64,000 nt of DNA from Natronococcus occultus SP4 (lineage in GTDB: Archaea; Halobacteriota; Halobacteria; Halobacteriales; Natrialbaceae). Shown one piece after another: positions 23,632-31,342 of the stretch. The DNA is taken from contig NC_019974.1 in assembly GCF_000328685.1 (NCBI RefSeq), positions 2,967,001 through 3,031,000 of the forward strand, written 5' to 3'. Under the pieces are notes generated by a model that was given only the letters and a program-made list of their open reading frames with translations, had not been told where the DNA came from and made no database searches. The first letter of the stretch is position 1, and every line of letters begins with the position of its first letter. The translations under genes and the position numbers were made by a program.

Positions 23632-24699
23632 TCACTGGAGCCCGCGATCCAGCGCCTCGAGCGCCTCCGCGAGCGTCACGATCGCGAGGTCGTGCTCGAG
23701 GGCGGTCTCGATGGTGTAGCGAATCCGGTCGGCGGTGAGGGTCTCGAACTGCGAGTGGCCGCCGACGATCGCGAGGACGGCCTCGTCGGCGGCGGTTTCC
23801 ATGAACGCGTCGAGCTCGGCCTCGGTCGCCTTATCGGTCTCGATATACCGCCGTTGCATCGTCGTCGGGTCGAGCTCCGCGAGCGCGTTGTGCCCGCCCC
23901 CGTACCGGTGGTTCGCGACCGCGTCGTACTGTTCCCGCACGACGTCTTCGACGACGCCGTGATACCGGGTATAGGGGTAGACGAAGCCGGTCACGTCGAG
24001 CCCCCACGCCTCGAGCTGTGCGTCCGTCCGTTCGAGCACCGTTTGCATGAACTCGGCCGGATGTCTGACGGTCCCCGCGTCGCTGATCGGGCCATCCAGC
24101 GGCTCGGCGAGTTCGATATACTGACCCGCCGCGTCGCTGTCGGCCCCGGCGACGGTCGTCGGTACCTCGCGGTCCTCGTCGGAGACGACCAGCGGATCGC
24201 CCTCGAAGTCGCCGTGGCGGTTCCAGTCGACGGCGAGCCGCTCGTCACCGTCGGCGGCGGCCGCCGTAAGGGGGATCTCGCCGAGCACGCGGTGGTCGGC
24301 CGTATGGGAGAGGACACCCCACCCCGCCGCGGCCAGTTCGGTCAGCTGTGCCGGGCTCAGGTGCGCGGCCGACGTCTCCATGAGCCCCGGACAGGCTGCG
24401 ATACAGCCCGGGACGTCGTACTCCTGGTGGATCCGGTAGGTGAGCGTGTAGTCCTCGACCGGGCTGTCGTCGTACGTGAACACGAGCAACCCCGCGGCGT
24501 CGGCGACGCGTGACTCGAGTGACGGCTCGGTTTCGGTCGCCCCACCGGCATGGCTCTGTTCGGCGGACCGGTCCTGTCGTGACGCCGGCTCGGTGTCCCG
24601 GTCGGTGGTGGACTCGCGGCGGGTCACCCCAGCCACGCCGGCACCACCGACGCCGGCGGCAGCGACCCCCGTCACCGCAAGAAATTTCCGACGGTTCAT
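23632..24699 (-). CDS. Tat-exported polysaccharide deacetylase-like protein
   Basis: The 355-residue protein begins MNRRKFLAVTGVAAAGVGGA, a twin-arginine signal, followed by a Ser/Asp-rich linker to about 65. A NodB-like domain follows: LLVFTYDDSP holds the metal Asp pair (D77, D78), and VLSHTADH holds two His ligands (H132, H136). Later GLDVTGFVYPYTRYHG resembles the FxxPYG block of this family. It probably removes N- or O-acetyl groups from a surface polysaccharide. An independent NodB-like gene lies just upstream at 24843-26183, but each has its own AT-rich promoter region. Confidence 0.8.
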   Translation of the reverse strand: MNRRKFLAVTGVAAAGVGGAGVAGVTRRESTTDRDTEPASRQDRSAEQSHAGGATETEPSLESRVADAAGLLVFTYDDSPVEDYTLTYRIHQEYDVPGCIAACPGLMETSAAHLSPAQLTELAAAGWGVLSHTADHRVLGEIPLTAAAADGDERLAVDWNRHGDFEGDPLVVSDEDREVPTTVAGADSDAAGQYIELAEPLDGPISDAGTVRHPAEFMQTVLERTDAQLEAWGLDVTGFVYPYTRYHGVVEDVVREQYDAVANHRYGGGHNALAELDPTTMQRRYIETDKATEAELDAFMETAADEAVLAIVGGHSQFETLTADRIRYTIETALEHDLAIVTLAEALEALDRGLQ

Positions 24700-24842: not shown

Positions 24843-26183
24843 TTAGTGGCCGGCCCGGCGCATCGCCCAGAGGTCGTCGAAGTCGATGGTCTCGACGCCG
24901 TCGGTCTCGGCGATGTACTGGATCAGCTCCTCGTAGTCGTCGGCGTCCATCGTGTTGTCCTGCTCGAAGGCATGGAAGTTCAGGATCGTACACTGGCGGT
25001 GGGCGGCGGCGGCGTCGACACACTGCCTGGCGATCTCGAGATCGTGGCCGATCGTCCGGGGCAGGACGAGCGGATCGTAGCCGTGGACGCCGGTGAGGTT
25101 GACGTTGCCGGCCTGGTTGAACCCGCCGGCGTAGTAGTAGTCCGACACCAACTCGAGGACCTCCCGGTCGAAGTCGTTGTGCGGGAACACGAGATAGTGG
25201 CCGCCCTGGAACTCGTTCTGGACCGCCCAGTTCTTGTCGACCTCGATCGAGTCCCGCAGGTCGTCCGGCTCGAGGTCGGTAAACTCGGTGTGAGTGCCGT
25301 GGGCGACGATCTGATCGCCGGCCTCCTGGCGCTCGTTGAGCTGGTCGGTCGTCATAATGCCGTCGCGCTGGTCGCGGGTCCACTGGCGGATGGCCGCCTG
25401 GACCGCGGTGACGTCGTACTCGTCGTGGATCGGTCCCGCCGGCTCGTAGAAGTCCTCGAACCCGTCGTCCCAACAGAGGACGACATACCCCTGGTCGGGC
25501 TTTTCGTGGGTGCGGATGTCGTCGACCCAGACCTCGGCCTCGTCGCCGGTGTTGTGGAGCACGACACGGAGTTCGTCGATCGCGTCTAGTTCGACGGGGG
25601 TCGTACTCTCCTCGAAGAAGCCGGGACAGGTCCGGAACCAGCCGGGCTCGTCGCTGCCGTAGGAGACCGACTGCAGCATGTAGGTCGCATACCCGCCGTA
25701 GATATCACGGAGCTGGAGCTCGAGGGCGATGTTCGCCGGCGTCGTCGTCCGGACCGCCATCGAGACGTCCCGGTCGCTCAGATCCGTCGCTTCGAACGCC
25801 GTCGCCACGACGGCGTTCCCCTCGTCCTCGGCGGTCAGTCGCAGACTCTGGCTCCCGTCGAAGACGACGTCCGTCTCGGCTTCCCCCGCCCCCTCTAACA
25901 GCTCCCACTCCTCGAGACTCTCGAAGTCGACGAACCCCTCGCCGGGCTGGCGGTACTCCTCGCGGCTGTTGTACGCCGTCTCGACGGTGAGTTCGGGCGA
26001 GTCGACGTCGTCCGCCGCCGCCTCGGTATCGTCACTCCCGCCGTCGGTCTCGTTCGTTGCCCCGTCGTCCTCGCCGTTCGGAGAGTCCGAACCGATCTGA
26101 TCCGCACACCCAGCCAGAGCAATCCCCATCGCCGTACCGGACGCTGCCAGAAACTGTCGTCGGAACCGTGAACGTTCCACCAT
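24843..26183 (-). CDS. Lipoprotein with polysaccharide deacetylase-like domain
   Basis: The 446-residue protein has a Tat lipoprotein signal (RFRRQFLAASG with lipobox ALAGC, Cys26), an Asp/Glu/Thr linker to about 65, and a beta-rich domain at about 82-225 (SQSLRLTAEDEGNAVVATAF) that looks like a carbohydrate-binding module. A NodB-like domain follows, with VVLCWDDGF (D239, D240) and QIVAHGTHTEF (H295, H298). The usual HxxxH spacing is HxxH here, so catalysis is less certain than for its neighbour. It would be anchored on the outer face and act on, or bind, the surface glycan. Confidence 0.78.
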   Translation of the reverse strand: MVERSRFRRQFLAASGTAMGIALAGCADQIGSDSPNGEDDGATNETDGGSDDTEAAADDVDSPELTVETAYNSREEYRQPGEGFVDFESLEEWELLEGAGEAETDVVFDGSQSLRLTAEDEGNAVVATAFEATDLSDRDVSMAVRTTTPANIALELQLRDIYGGYATYMLQSVSYGSDEPGWFRTCPGFFEESTTPVELDAIDELRVVLHNTGDEAEVWVDDIRTHEKPDQGYVVLCWDDGFEDFYEPAGPIHDEYDVTAVQAAIRQWTRDQRDGIMTTDQLNERQEAGDQIVAHGTHTEFTDLEPDDLRDSIEVDKNWAVQNEFQGGHYLVFPHNDFDREVLELVSDYYYAGGFNQAGNVNLTGVHGYDPLVLPRTIGHDLEIARQCVDAAAAHRQCTILNFHAFEQDNTMDADDYEELIQYIAETDGVETIDFDDLWAMRRAGH

Positions 26184-26784: not shown

Positions 26785-26985
26785 ATGGCAACAACGGAGG
26801 ACTCGATCGACGGACTCACAGAGGACTGTCCACAGTGTGGTCGAGAGACGCTTCACAGCGTCTCCATCCAGCTCCGGACCGAGAGCGAGACCGGGCAGAA
26901 CACGGCGTGTTCCCGGGAGCCGTATCGCGTCAGCGAGTGCCAGGTGTGTCACACGCGGGAGAGCCAGCGGATGAACAACGCCTAA
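26785..26985 (+). CDS. Small zinc-ribbon protein, DUF7835-like
   Basis: The 66-residue product has C15-P-Q-C18, a further Cys42, and C52-Q-V-C55, with SIQLRTESE and NTACSREPYRVSECQVC between and around them. I recall this CPQCGRET pattern as a haloarchaea-wide beta-ribbon family (DUF7835). It differs from the three 50-residue ribbons in spacing and ending. It is probably zinc-binding; no partner is suggested by the neighbours. Confidence 0.82.
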   Translation: MATTEDSIDGLTEDCPQCGRETLHSVSIQLRTESETGQNTACSREPYRVSECQVCHTRESQRMNNA

Positions 26986-27062: not shown

Positions 27063-28412
27063 CTACTGGAGCGTTGCGAGTGTTCCGAGCACGCGGGGCC
27101 AGTGGGCGTGTGCGGCCTCGGCGTTGCCAGCGAGCGTGCCGCCGGCCGTCTCCCCCGCCGTCCCCCGGAGGGGGAGATACGGCTGGGGGAGCCGGTGGCC
27201 GGCGTCGGCATACCGCAGGTGGTCGAACGAGGGATGCCCACGCGTCGCGAGGCGCTCCCGGGCGTGGGCGTGCAGGCGGGCGCTTGGCCAGACGGCGTCG
27301 TCCTCGCCCGAGACGAGCAACACCGGTCCATCGATCCGCTCGACGGGGATCGTTGCGGCCGTGAGTTCGCGCGCTCCCGCAGCCGCGATGGCTGCGGTGT
27401 AGCGCTCGTGGCGGTCCTGACCAGCCTCGGTCGCGACCGCAAGCGGCGCACGCGGGTCGTCGTCGAGCGCCCAGGCGACGGTCCCCGCCGGGGAGCCACG
27501 CACCGCCCCACCCTCCCAGAGGATCCCGCTCCCCCCGACCGAGACGACCGGCCCGACCTCGTCGGACAGACTCCCGACGAGCAGCCCGAGCTCACCACCC
27601 CGGCCGACCCCCCAGACCCCGATCCGATCGCCGGCGACCCGCTCGTGGTCGCCCAGCCAGTCGATCGCGGCCGTGACGTACGCCACCGGAACCTCGACGA
27701 CCGACGCCGGCAGCCCCGGGCCGTCGACGTACTCGAGTGCGAACGCCGTAAACCCGTGGTGGGCCAACAGCGCGGCGACGTGGTCCTGGGGTGTGCCGTC
27801 CGCGCCGTGGAGGACGAGCACGCCCGGCCCGGCTCCGCCGCTCGGCGGTTCGAAAACCCGACCGACGAGATCGCCAGGCGGCTCGGTGACGCGGGTGAAC
27901 GGATGCCACCGCGAGAGGGTCAGTGCACCGAGCGTCCGGTCGTCGGCCACGACGCGGTACGTGAGACTGGTCTCGGGGGGCCACCGCTCGGGGTCGGCAA
28001 CCGCTCCGGTGTACGCCGCCCACGGGGCGTCGGCGAACTGGATCAGGGCCCCCGTCGTCGGAACGTCGAGCCCCGCTGGAACGTCGCCGCCGACGAGAGG
28101 GGCGTCGTTCAGCGACAGCGTCTCCGTCTCGGTTGCAACGGTGACGGCGGCGCCGAACGTCTCGCCGGTCGTGCACTCGCCCTCGAGGACGACCTCGAGC
28201 TCCGCTCCCGCGGGGACGCCACGGGCCGTCAGCTCGACCGGCTCGTCGACGCGGACCGTCGCCGAGTGGGTGACCGACGACGGCTCGTCGGCGGGCAGCG
28301 TCCCCCCGGCGAGCCCAACGCTGGCCGTCCCGCCCAGCAACGCCAGCAGCTGGCGCCGCGAGCGGACACGCCGCGATCCCCTGTCGGTCGTCGGGAGGCC
28401 GTCGGTGAACAT
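27063..28412 (-). CDS. BAAT/acyl-CoA thioesterase-type hydrolase lacking its nucleophile
   Basis: The 449-residue protein has a Tat-like start (RRQLLALLGG, 19-28), a beta-rich N-terminal domain like Bile_Hydr_Trans (50-170), and an alpha/beta-hydrolase domain like BAAT_C (180-449). Recognisable blocks are GVLVLHGADG, RIGVWGVGRGGELGLLVGS, PVLLVSGEDDAVWPS and YADAGHRLP. The acid and His of the triad are present (D371 or D372, H406). At the nucleophile elbow, where relatives have G-x-S/C-x-G-G-E, this protein has Gly270 (codon GGC; AGC would be Ser). It may bind a substrate without hydrolysing it. It lies 109 bases after a ligase-like gene on the same strand. Confidence 0.78.
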   Translation of the reverse strand: MFTDGLPTTDRGSRRVRSRRQLLALLGGTASVGLAGGTLPADEPSSVTHSATVRVDEPVELTARGVPAGAELEVVLEGECTTGETFGAAVTVATETETLSLNDAPLVGGDVPAGLDVPTTGALIQFADAPWAAYTGAVADPERWPPETSLTYRVVADDRTLGALTLSRWHPFTRVTEPPGDLVGRVFEPPSGGAGPGVLVLHGADGTPQDHVAALLAHHGFTAFALEYVDGPGLPASVVEVPVAYVTAAIDWLGDHERVAGDRIGVWGVGRGGELGLLVGSLSDEVGPVVSVGGSGILWEGGAVRGSPAGTVAWALDDDPRAPLAVATEAGQDRHERYTAAIAAAGARELTAATIPVERIDGPVLLVSGEDDAVWPSARLHAHARERLATRGHPSFDHLRYADAGHRLPQPYLPLRGTAGETAGGTLAGNAEAAHAHWPRVLGTLATLQ

Positions 28413-28521: not shown

Positions 28522-29934
28522 TCAGTCGCCGAACAGCAGGTAGCCAACCGAGAGAGTAACCAGCACCGAGCCCAGCGACCAGTGAAACATCGTATAGGAT
28601 TCGAACAGCTGGTGGATCGCCCAGCCGGTCACGAACGCGAGCATCGCGGCGTCGAGCTCGCCGGTGTCGGCCAGTCCGGCGACGAGGCTGCCGCCGAGGA
28701 GAGCCAGATAGGCGAACCCGCCGACGAGTCCGGTCTGGATCGCGACCGACAGATAGGCGTTGTGGGGCGACGGCGCCGTCTCGGCCGCGAGGTAGGGCTC
28801 GATCACGACGCTGGCCGGCCCGCCGCCGTGACCGACCAGCAACGGCCCGTCGCGGATCGCCTGCAGACTTGCCGACCAGAGCGTAAACCGGTTCGCCGAG
28901 GAGATCTCGACGAGGCCAACGGCCATCCCCGCAAGCACACCGACCACGCCGAGCACGCTCGAGGCGAGCACGAGCGCGCCGAGACGACGGCCACCGAGGA
29001 CACACCCCGCATAGACGACGACGGCGACCGCCGCTGCAAGCATCGCGGCCCGGGCGTTCGAGAGCACGACCCCCAACCCACAGAGGCTGCCGACCACGAC
29101 CGCCAGCCCCACCCCGAGGGGACGCCGGGCAACGAGGGACCGGTGCAACTCGACGACCGCCGCGACGAACCCGGCAAACGACAGCAGCCCGAAGCCGTTC
29201 GGGTTCGGGAACACCGACTGGAGCGTCGTGTCGACGCCGGGAACCGGCGGCGAACTCGACCACTGGCGAACCTCGAAGATCCAGACGGCGTACTCTCCGA
29301 CACCGTAGGTGGCTACCCCGAGAAGGACGACGAGCGACCCCAGACAGGACAGCAGCCGGAAGAACACCCGCTCGGGGACGAGCCGTGGGACGACCAGCAG
29401 ATTCGTCCCCATGATGACCATCGCCCAGATCGGCCAGCGAGACTGTGAGCTCGAGGGATCGAACGCGAGCGTGTGGCCGAGATAGAGCGCCGCAAGCGCC
29501 ATGAAACAGCCGACAGCGCCCCACTGGACCGGCGTATACCGTCCGGGGGCGGTGACGACCACCAGGAACGACAGCCACAGCACGAAAACGACGGTGAGCG
29601 CAAGCGGCCGGCTCGGTCCGAGGCCGAGCCCGGGTGAGCTGCTCTGGTAGACGACGGCGATCACGGCCAGGGCGACGCCAAGCACCGACAGGAGGGCCGC
29701 CTGGCGGTGCTCGGAGCCCCGGTAGCGGTCGAGCGCCAGCCGAGCGCCAAGCACCGCCGCCAGCAGGACGGCGACCGTCGCGAGCTGCCACGCGAACACC
29801 AGATCGGTCGCGTACGCCACAATCACGAGCAACAGATACAGCCCGAACAACCCGTAGGTCGCGCCGGCCGCGAGTCGGCCCACGCTCCAGTGGCGTCCCT
29901 GCGACGTCCCTCGCTTTTGCGTGAGAGTTCCCAT
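28522..29934 (-). CDS. O-antigen ligase/polymerase-like membrane protein (third copy)
   Basis: The 470-residue protein has twelve or so helices. It shows the Wzy_C layout: VFPNPNGFGLL in mid-protein, NRFTLWSASLQAIRDGPLL further on, and APSPHNAYLSVAIQTGLVGG on the outside loop. The loop between GPLL and PHN is longer than in the other two copies. The cytoplasmic N-terminus, MGTLTQKRGTSQG, is short and basic. It lies between a PQQ-type propeller gene and the BAAT-like gene, away from any flippase, which hints at ligation of glycan to a protein or lipid acceptor. That role is inference. Confidence 0.75.
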   Translation of the reverse strand: MGTLTQKRGTSQGRHWSVGRLAAGATYGLFGLYLLLVIVAYATDLVFAWQLATVAVLLAAVLGARLALDRYRGSEHRQAALLSVLGVALAVIAVVYQSSSPGLGLGPSRPLALTVVFVLWLSFLVVVTAPGRYTPVQWGAVGCFMALAALYLGHTLAFDPSSSQSRWPIWAMVIMGTNLLVVPRLVPERVFFRLLSCLGSLVVLLGVATYGVGEYAVWIFEVRQWSSSPPVPGVDTTLQSVFPNPNGFGLLSFAGFVAAVVELHRSLVARRPLGVGLAVVVGSLCGLGVVLSNARAAMLAAAVAVVVYAGCVLGGRRLGALVLASSVLGVVGVLAGMAVGLVEISSANRFTLWSASLQAIRDGPLLVGHGGGPASVVIEPYLAAETAPSPHNAYLSVAIQTGLVGGFAYLALLGGSLVAGLADTGELDAAMLAFVTGWAIHQLFESYTMFHWSLGSVLVTLSVGYLLFGD

Positions 29935-30106: not shown

Positions 30107-31342
30107 CTACTGGGAGCGCTCGCCGCGCGGGCAAAGCGCCGTCAGCCCCTCCTCGCGGTCGACGTAAACCGTGTCCTCGGTGACGAGACACGCCTCGTTG
30201 AACCCGTCGCTCCACTGGGTCTCGTCGAAGGTAAAACACCACTCCTCATGGCCGTCATCGAGACGGTAACCGACGATCTCGTCGGGGTTCGCCGAGCCGG
30301 GAGCGCTGTGGGCGACGACGACCGTGTCGTCGATGATCGCCGGCGGGCCGTACGCGTGCGAGCCGTTCTTACACCACTCCGAGTCGGGGCCCGTCATCTT
30401 GAGCTCGTACCGGCCACGGGTGACGGTCCGGTCGCCGACGGCGGCGGTCGTCAGCGCATCGGAGATGAACCGCTCGCGCTCTTTCGTGTCGTCGGCGAGA
30501 CTCGTCACGCCCTCCTCGCCGTCGTTCTCGACAAACACCGCCTCGTCGGTCGCCGCAATCCCGTTCCCGAAGTCGCCGGCCCGGAGCTGCGCCGAGCGCT
30601 GGGTCGTGCCCGACAGCGGGTCGAACGCCACGACGGCGTCGGCATCGATCGAGTCCTCGCTCCGACGGCCGTCGAGCAGCCCGATCACCGAGCCCTCGAC
30701 CGCAGCGACCGCGGTAGGCTGGGTACTGAACACGTAGCTAACCGCACCCGAATCGTCGGTCTGGTCCGGCGTAACACGGACGGTCTCACACGTCCACCGG
30801 AGCGAGCCATCGTCCGCTGCGAAGGCATAGAGCGTGCCGTCGACAGTGAGATAGACGGAGTCGAACGCAGCAACCGGAGCGGATGTGTCGGCCGCCTCTC
30901 CGAACCGCTTGCTCCACTGGACGCTCCCACTGGCGGCGTCGATCGCGGTGAGCTGGGAGCCGGCGACGAACACGGTTTCGTCGGCGACCGCCGGCGTACC
31001 TGCCGCCTCGATCCGCTCACAGGTCCACAGACACTCCCCGGTCGCCGAATCGAGCCCGTGGACGCCCGCTCCCGTCCGCAGATAGACCATCTCGCCGGCC
31101 GCGACTGCGTCTCCGGTTTCGCCGTACTGCCAGTCGATGAGATCCGGTTTCTCGAACCCGTCGGGCGCCGAGACAGAGCGGGTGTTTCCGGTGTTCCCGG
31201 CGTAGGACGACCATCCATCGGGTTTCTCGAGCGGCGGCGTCGTCTCTGTCGAGCGATCCCCGCTCCCGAGCGACGCAAGAAGCCCACCAGCCGAAAGCGT
31301 TGCACCTGTTGCCAGTACCGATCGACGTTGCCAGTCTGCCAT
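30107..31342 (-). CDS. Tat-exported PQQ-type beta-propeller protein
   Basis: The 411-residue protein begins MADWQRRSVLATGATLSAGG, a twin-arginine signal. From about 65 on, blades repeat the pattern of a Trp, a strand, then DxxxVYL/VFV-x-LxAxDAxxG: for example TVFVAGSQLTAIDAASG and SVYLTVDGTLYAFAADDG. This is the PQQ/BamB-like repeat. About seven or eight blades can be counted. No cofactor residues can be assigned, so it may be a structural propeller and not a quinoprotein enzyme. It would act outside the cell, near the surface-glycan proteins encoded downstream on the same strand. Confidence 0.82.
   Translation of the reverse strand: MADWQRRSVLATGATLSAGGLLASLGSGDRSTETTPPLEKPDGWSSYAGNTGNTRSVSAPDGFEKPDLIDWQYGETGDAVAAGEMVYLRTGAGVHGLDSATGECLWTCERIEAAGTPAVADETVFVAGSQLTAIDAASGSVQWSKRFGEAADTSAPVAAFDSVYLTVDGTLYAFAADDGSLRWTCETVRVTPDQTDDSGAVSYVFSTQPTAVAAVEGSVIGLLDGRRSEDSIDADAVVAFDPLSGTTQRSAQLRAGDFGNGIAATDEAVFVENDGEEGVTSLADDTKERERFISDALTTAAVGDRTVTRGRYELKMTGPDSEWCKNGSHAYGPPAIIDDTVVVAHSAPGSANPDEIVGYRLDDGHEEWCFTFDETQWSDGFNEACLVTEDTVYVDREEGLTALCPRGERSQ

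Follow-up and report, generated by a model that had tools for sequence, protein, structure and literature searches.

A probable Tat-exported pseudoenzyme of the BAAT_C/ACOT-like alpha/beta-hydrolases in Natronococcus

Some proteins of the alpha/beta-hydrolase fold have replaced triad residues and are non-catalytic, as in the neuroligins and NDRG2/3, and the neuroligins serve an extracellular binding function (PMC5943944, PMC7022630). The protein described here shares this fold, and among solved structures human ACOT4 (3k2i) and ACOT2 (3hlk) match it best; a literature search on haloarchaeal BAAT proteins returned nothing relevant. Its gene lies in a 64,000-nucleotide stretch of the Natronococcus occultus SP4 genome (NC_019974.1, positions 2,967,001 to 3,031,000), referred to below as the window, and its features and neighbours are listed in Table 1.

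Table 1. Coordinates in the window of the BAAT_C-type gene, its diagnostic codons and its neighbours.
Feature	Position	Strand	Basis or distribution
BAAT_C-type alpha/beta-hydrolase-fold gene without nucleophile	27063..28412	-	449 aa; ORF, Pfam and ACOT alignments
Twin-arginine codons R19-R20 of Tat signal (S-RR-QLLALL)	28353..28358	-	sequence motif
Gly37 (GGG) at lipobox Cys position	28302..28304	-	Cys in N. jeotgali and nearest Ser-type relatives
Ala204, beside putative oxyanion-hole His-Gly	27801..27803	-	Ser in 19/19 Ser-type, Ala in 5/5 Gly-type
Val229	27726..27728	-	Phe in 19/19 Ser-type, Val in 5/5 Gly-type
Gly270 (GGC), nucleophile elbow	27603..27605	-	alignments and orthologue codons
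Asp372, triad acid position	27297..27299	-	invariant in A2 and 5/5 Gly-type proteins
His406 (CAC), triad His position	27195..27197	-	Arg in four other Gly-type orthologues
O-antigen ligase (Wzy_C) protein, upstream neighbour, same strand	28522..29934	-	syntenic in 5/5 species
PQQ-repeat protein, upstream, same strand	30107..31342	-	syntenic in 5/5 species
Polysaccharide-deacetylase-like Tat lipoprotein, next larger gene downstream	24843..26183	-	neighbour in 4/5 contigs

The 449-residue product matches PF08840 (BAAT_C) with an E-value of 4.2e-26 and 92.7 bits (curated cut-off 20.9), with weaker Pfam matches to dienelactone hydrolase and Peptidase_S9. A profile built from nine haloarchaeal relatives aligns with ACOT2 and ACOT4 over approximately the full mature length (E 8e-48 and 9e-48). 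PF04775 (Bile_Hydr_Trans) has no match in the window protein and matches three of the nine A2 members, and the region is covered by the profile-based ACOT2/ACOT4 alignment. Structure prediction from five sequences gave an unusable model (mean pLDDT 31.7).

The nucleophile elbow of the window protein reads G268-V-G270-R-G-G-E274, and Gly270 lies opposite the nucleophile Ser of ACOT4 (GISLGAD) and ACOT2 (GISKGGE) in an alignment that is gapless around the elbow. An earlier sequence-only reading of this DNA had described a BAAT-type hydrolase with glycine, codon GGC, as its nucleophile, and the position, the codon and the ACOT2/ACOT4 alignment all bear this out. Asp372, the second Asp of SGEDD, aligns with the acid (GQDDHNW) in these alignments, and His406 (in DAGH) with the His in TGHYI; the putative oxyanion-hole pair His202-Gly203 is invariant.

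Whole-genome searches and a scan of named genomes identified four syntenic orthologues, in Natronococcus sp. A-GB7 (79% identity), sp. A-GB1 (77%), N. amylolyticus (76%) and N. jeotgali (67%), and a homologue is absent from three other genomes of the genus. The BAAT_C motif GxSxGxE has a Ser or Cys nucleophile, and the comparison of orthologues that the sequence-only reading had proposed yielded Gly in all four. The Gly codons of the five proteins (GGC, GGT, GGG, GGG and GGC) differ in their third base, so third bases have changed while Gly stayed. The claim that both the acid and the His of the triad remain is accurate for the acid and for the window protein itself, but the His position is Arg in the other four (CGG, CGA, CGA and CGC); the tree requires two changes both if the window His406 is the original state and if it reverted from Arg. 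All five open reading frames are intact, including that of N. jeotgali, for which an apparent interruption by TGA was rejected because the TGA precedes the gene's own ATG. We also note a second, Ser-type homologue (L044, G092:C44:1897-3180; 46% identity) alongside the Gly protein in Natronococcus sp. A-GB7; this second copy is absent from the window's genome.

A broader set of 106 haloarchaeal homologues was drawn from two overlapping samples, of 125 genomes (family) and 293 genomes (order, single-protein search). Ser-Asp-His is present in 98 of the 106; the remainder are five with Gly, one with Ala, and two with an unreadable His or acid column that are probably incomplete copies. Gly at the nucleophile is confined to the five Natronococcus proteins. 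The Ala protein (L023, G041:C41:15565-16791) is a distant homologue from another genus that retains the Asp and His (elbow GRARGGE), a nucleophile loss that apparently arose independently within the family.

The five Gly proteins form a single clade (100/100) within the Ser proteins, also when the diagnostic columns are omitted, and their sister is a group of Ser-type proteins from another genus (99/97, or 95/95 without the diagnostic columns). The simplest reading of this topology is one nucleophile loss, on the branch leading to the five, and the alignments and tree place the loss before N. jeotgali separated from the other four. The stem of the Gly clade is 0.43-0.49 long versus 0.24 for the sister stem, which is consistent with a burst of change. 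A comparison of 19 Ser-type and the five Gly-type proteins gave three sites fixed differently between the groups, Ser204Ala, Phe229Val and Ser270Gly. Every protein of the Gly clade also has Arg at 159, 321, 334, 337 and 416, where Ser-type proteins rarely do.

The Tat motif S-R-R-Q-L-L occupies residues 18-23. The twin arginines of a Tat lipoprotein are thus present in the window protein and its lipobox Cys is missing; the lipobox reads LAGG, versus LAGC in N. jeotgali. Three other Gly-type proteins share this Gly with the window protein, and all four are therefore probably released or held by the signal only. The closest proteins of the Ser type, L007-L012, are themselves Tat lipoproteins and have the lipobox Cys; export is therefore ancestral and predates the nucleophile loss. 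Loss of the lipid anchor was probably later than that of the nucleophile. The sequence-only reading was right that there is a Tat motif, but the oddness it saw in an extracellular acyl-CoA enzyme comes from the family name, the relatives being Tat lipoproteins as well; ancestral export suggests that an acyl-CoA is unlikely ever to have been the natural substrate.

The gene is kept under purifying selection, most strongly in the formerly catalytic domain. For pairs with unsaturated dS, dN/dS is 0.24-0.41 by NG86 and 0.17-0.29 by YN00, the excess of synonymous changes has Fisher p values of 1e-4 to 1e-31, and pN/pS is lowest in the hydrolase domain (0.14-0.32 versus 0.35-0.51 in the N-terminal domain). 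Neighbouring genes have dN/dS values of 0.11-0.26 in the same close pairs, and the values of the studied gene, at roughly 1.5-2 times these, indicate that constraint is partly relaxed.

The genes flanking the studied gene are conserved across the five Natronococcus species, and the Ser-type relatives examined have different genomic neighbours. The A-GB1 contig ends before the deacetylase-like gene, an orthologue of which is on another A-GB1 contig. Beyond the O-antigen-ligase-like and PQQ-repeat genes lies, in the opposite orientation, a gene for a TackOD1-domain protein. The deacetylase-like protein is adjacent to a similar one (23632-24699), both with N-terminal twin-Arg signals, and has four further paralogues in the same genome at 62-71% identity, being widespread in the family; roughly 200 kb from the O-antigen-ligase-like gene, the genome has two paralogues of it at about 60% identity. 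With such paralogues, the block indicates envelope or extracellular glycan in a general way and not one pathway. Two more Natronococcus genomes (G093 and G094) have no match to the O-antigen-ligase-like protein. Convergent with the studied gene is a short plus-strand frame (26800-26985) with a CxxC zinc-ribbon pattern (CPQCGRET ... CQVCHTRES).

A wall of glycosylated polyglutamine (glutaminylglycan) has been reported for Natronococcus, from N. occultus (PMC4243693). No glutaminylglycan biosynthesis genes are named in the literature searched. The polyglutamate-synthesis protein CapC (PF14102) had no match in any of nine Natronococcus genomes, so no link to the Bacillus-type polyglutamate pathway is made, and a tie of the gene to the polyglutamine wall is speculation.

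The gene product is probably a Tat-exported pseudoenzyme of the BAAT_C/ACOT-like branch of alpha/beta-hydrolases. The pseudoenzyme part is well supported at the level of sequence comparison: an essential residue is missing across the orthologous group, and the gene is under purifying selection. The nucleophile was lost long ago and the protein retained under selection, and we consider it likely that it now has a non-enzymatic binding role. The nucleophile Ser had already given way to Gly when the five Natronococcus species separated, with Ser204Ala and Phe229Val fixed as accompanying changes and the His and the lipid-anchor Cys each missing from four of the five. From the chemistry of the fold, Gly at this position should preclude a covalent acyl-enzyme, and ordinary Ser-hydrolase activity would be gone. 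By analogy with the neuroligins and NDRG proteins, the protein would act outside the cell by binding, with a ligand accommodated in its former pocket or on the surface of the fold. Of the earlier suggestion of an inactive binding protein, inactivity is favoured by the Gly, the Arg at the His position and the purifying selection, and binding is proposed by that same analogy. That the ligand is an envelope or extracellular glycan is a tentative guess from the O-antigen-ligase-like and deacetylase neighbours, and the five clade-invariant Arg residues could bind an anionic glycan; it is a long shot that a Tat lipoprotein esterase has become a genus-specific extracellular pseudo-hydrolase serving as a ligand-binding or scaffolding part of the Natronococcus envelope.

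The alternatives would have the protein still be an enzyme, or the gene be on its way out. An enzyme with different chemistry, relying on His-Asp or other pocket residues to activate water and forming no covalent intermediate, fits the invariant Asp372 and oxyanion-hole pair, the His406 kept in the window protein and the hydrolase domain being the most constrained part; we regard it as unlikely, since Arg at the His position excludes a conserved His-dependent chemistry for the clade and the vicinity of the elbow has gained no invariant Ser or Cys in the Gly clade that could be a replacement nucleophile. Decay, with the enzyme role lost and the gene drifting towards loss, could account for the raised dN/dS, the patchy absence of the His and lipobox Cys and the three genomes of the genus that have no homologue. 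Five intact reading frames, the strong synonymous excess, the uniform replacements at 204 and 229, and an identity to N. jeotgali (67%) on par with that of neighbouring genes (67-69%) all argue against it, and leave decay a small chance.

The two remaining explanations concern the elbow itself. A nucleophile elsewhere in the protein, which the sequence-only reading had named as the outcome that would overturn it, was ruled out as a candidate by the gapless alignment of the elbow with ACOT2/ACOT4 and the 98 Ser-Asp-His homologues, and the single Cys of the window protein is unconserved in orthologues; a misread elbow is very improbable. The same reading had offered a recent single-base loss (AGC to GGC), and the window codon is indeed one base from AGC. 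Gly in five separately sequenced genomes with differing third bases, in a monophyletic clade whose loss predates the N. jeotgali split, overturns this suggestion, and a change in this genome alone or a sequencing error retains next to no probability.

It would be wrong for automatic annotation to label this protein 'acyl-CoA thioesterase' or 'dienelactone hydrolase'. Should its tie to the envelope block prove real, the gene would be a deletion target for study of the unusual Natronococcus wall. The locus offers a clear archaeal case of an enzyme becoming a pseudoenzyme that can be read in a handful of genomes, with a Ser-type sister, a fixed nucleophile loss, partial losses of the His and the lipid anchor, and continued selection.

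Human ACOT2 and ACOT4 have the elbow, acid and His motifs in common with the window protein, but are intracellular with a Ser nucleophile, whereas the window protein has Gly and a Tat signal. Closer are L007-L012, from genera g17, g23 and others, which are haloarchaeal Tat lipoproteins of the Ser type and the nearest sister groups on the tree; they share 45-52% identity, the domain layout and the Tat signal, but unlike the window gene have an intact Ser-Asp-His, a lipobox Cys and other neighbours. The neuroligins and NDRG2/3 resemble the Natronococcus protein in fold and in the replacement of triad residues, but are animal proteins of other subfamilies with an independent origin.
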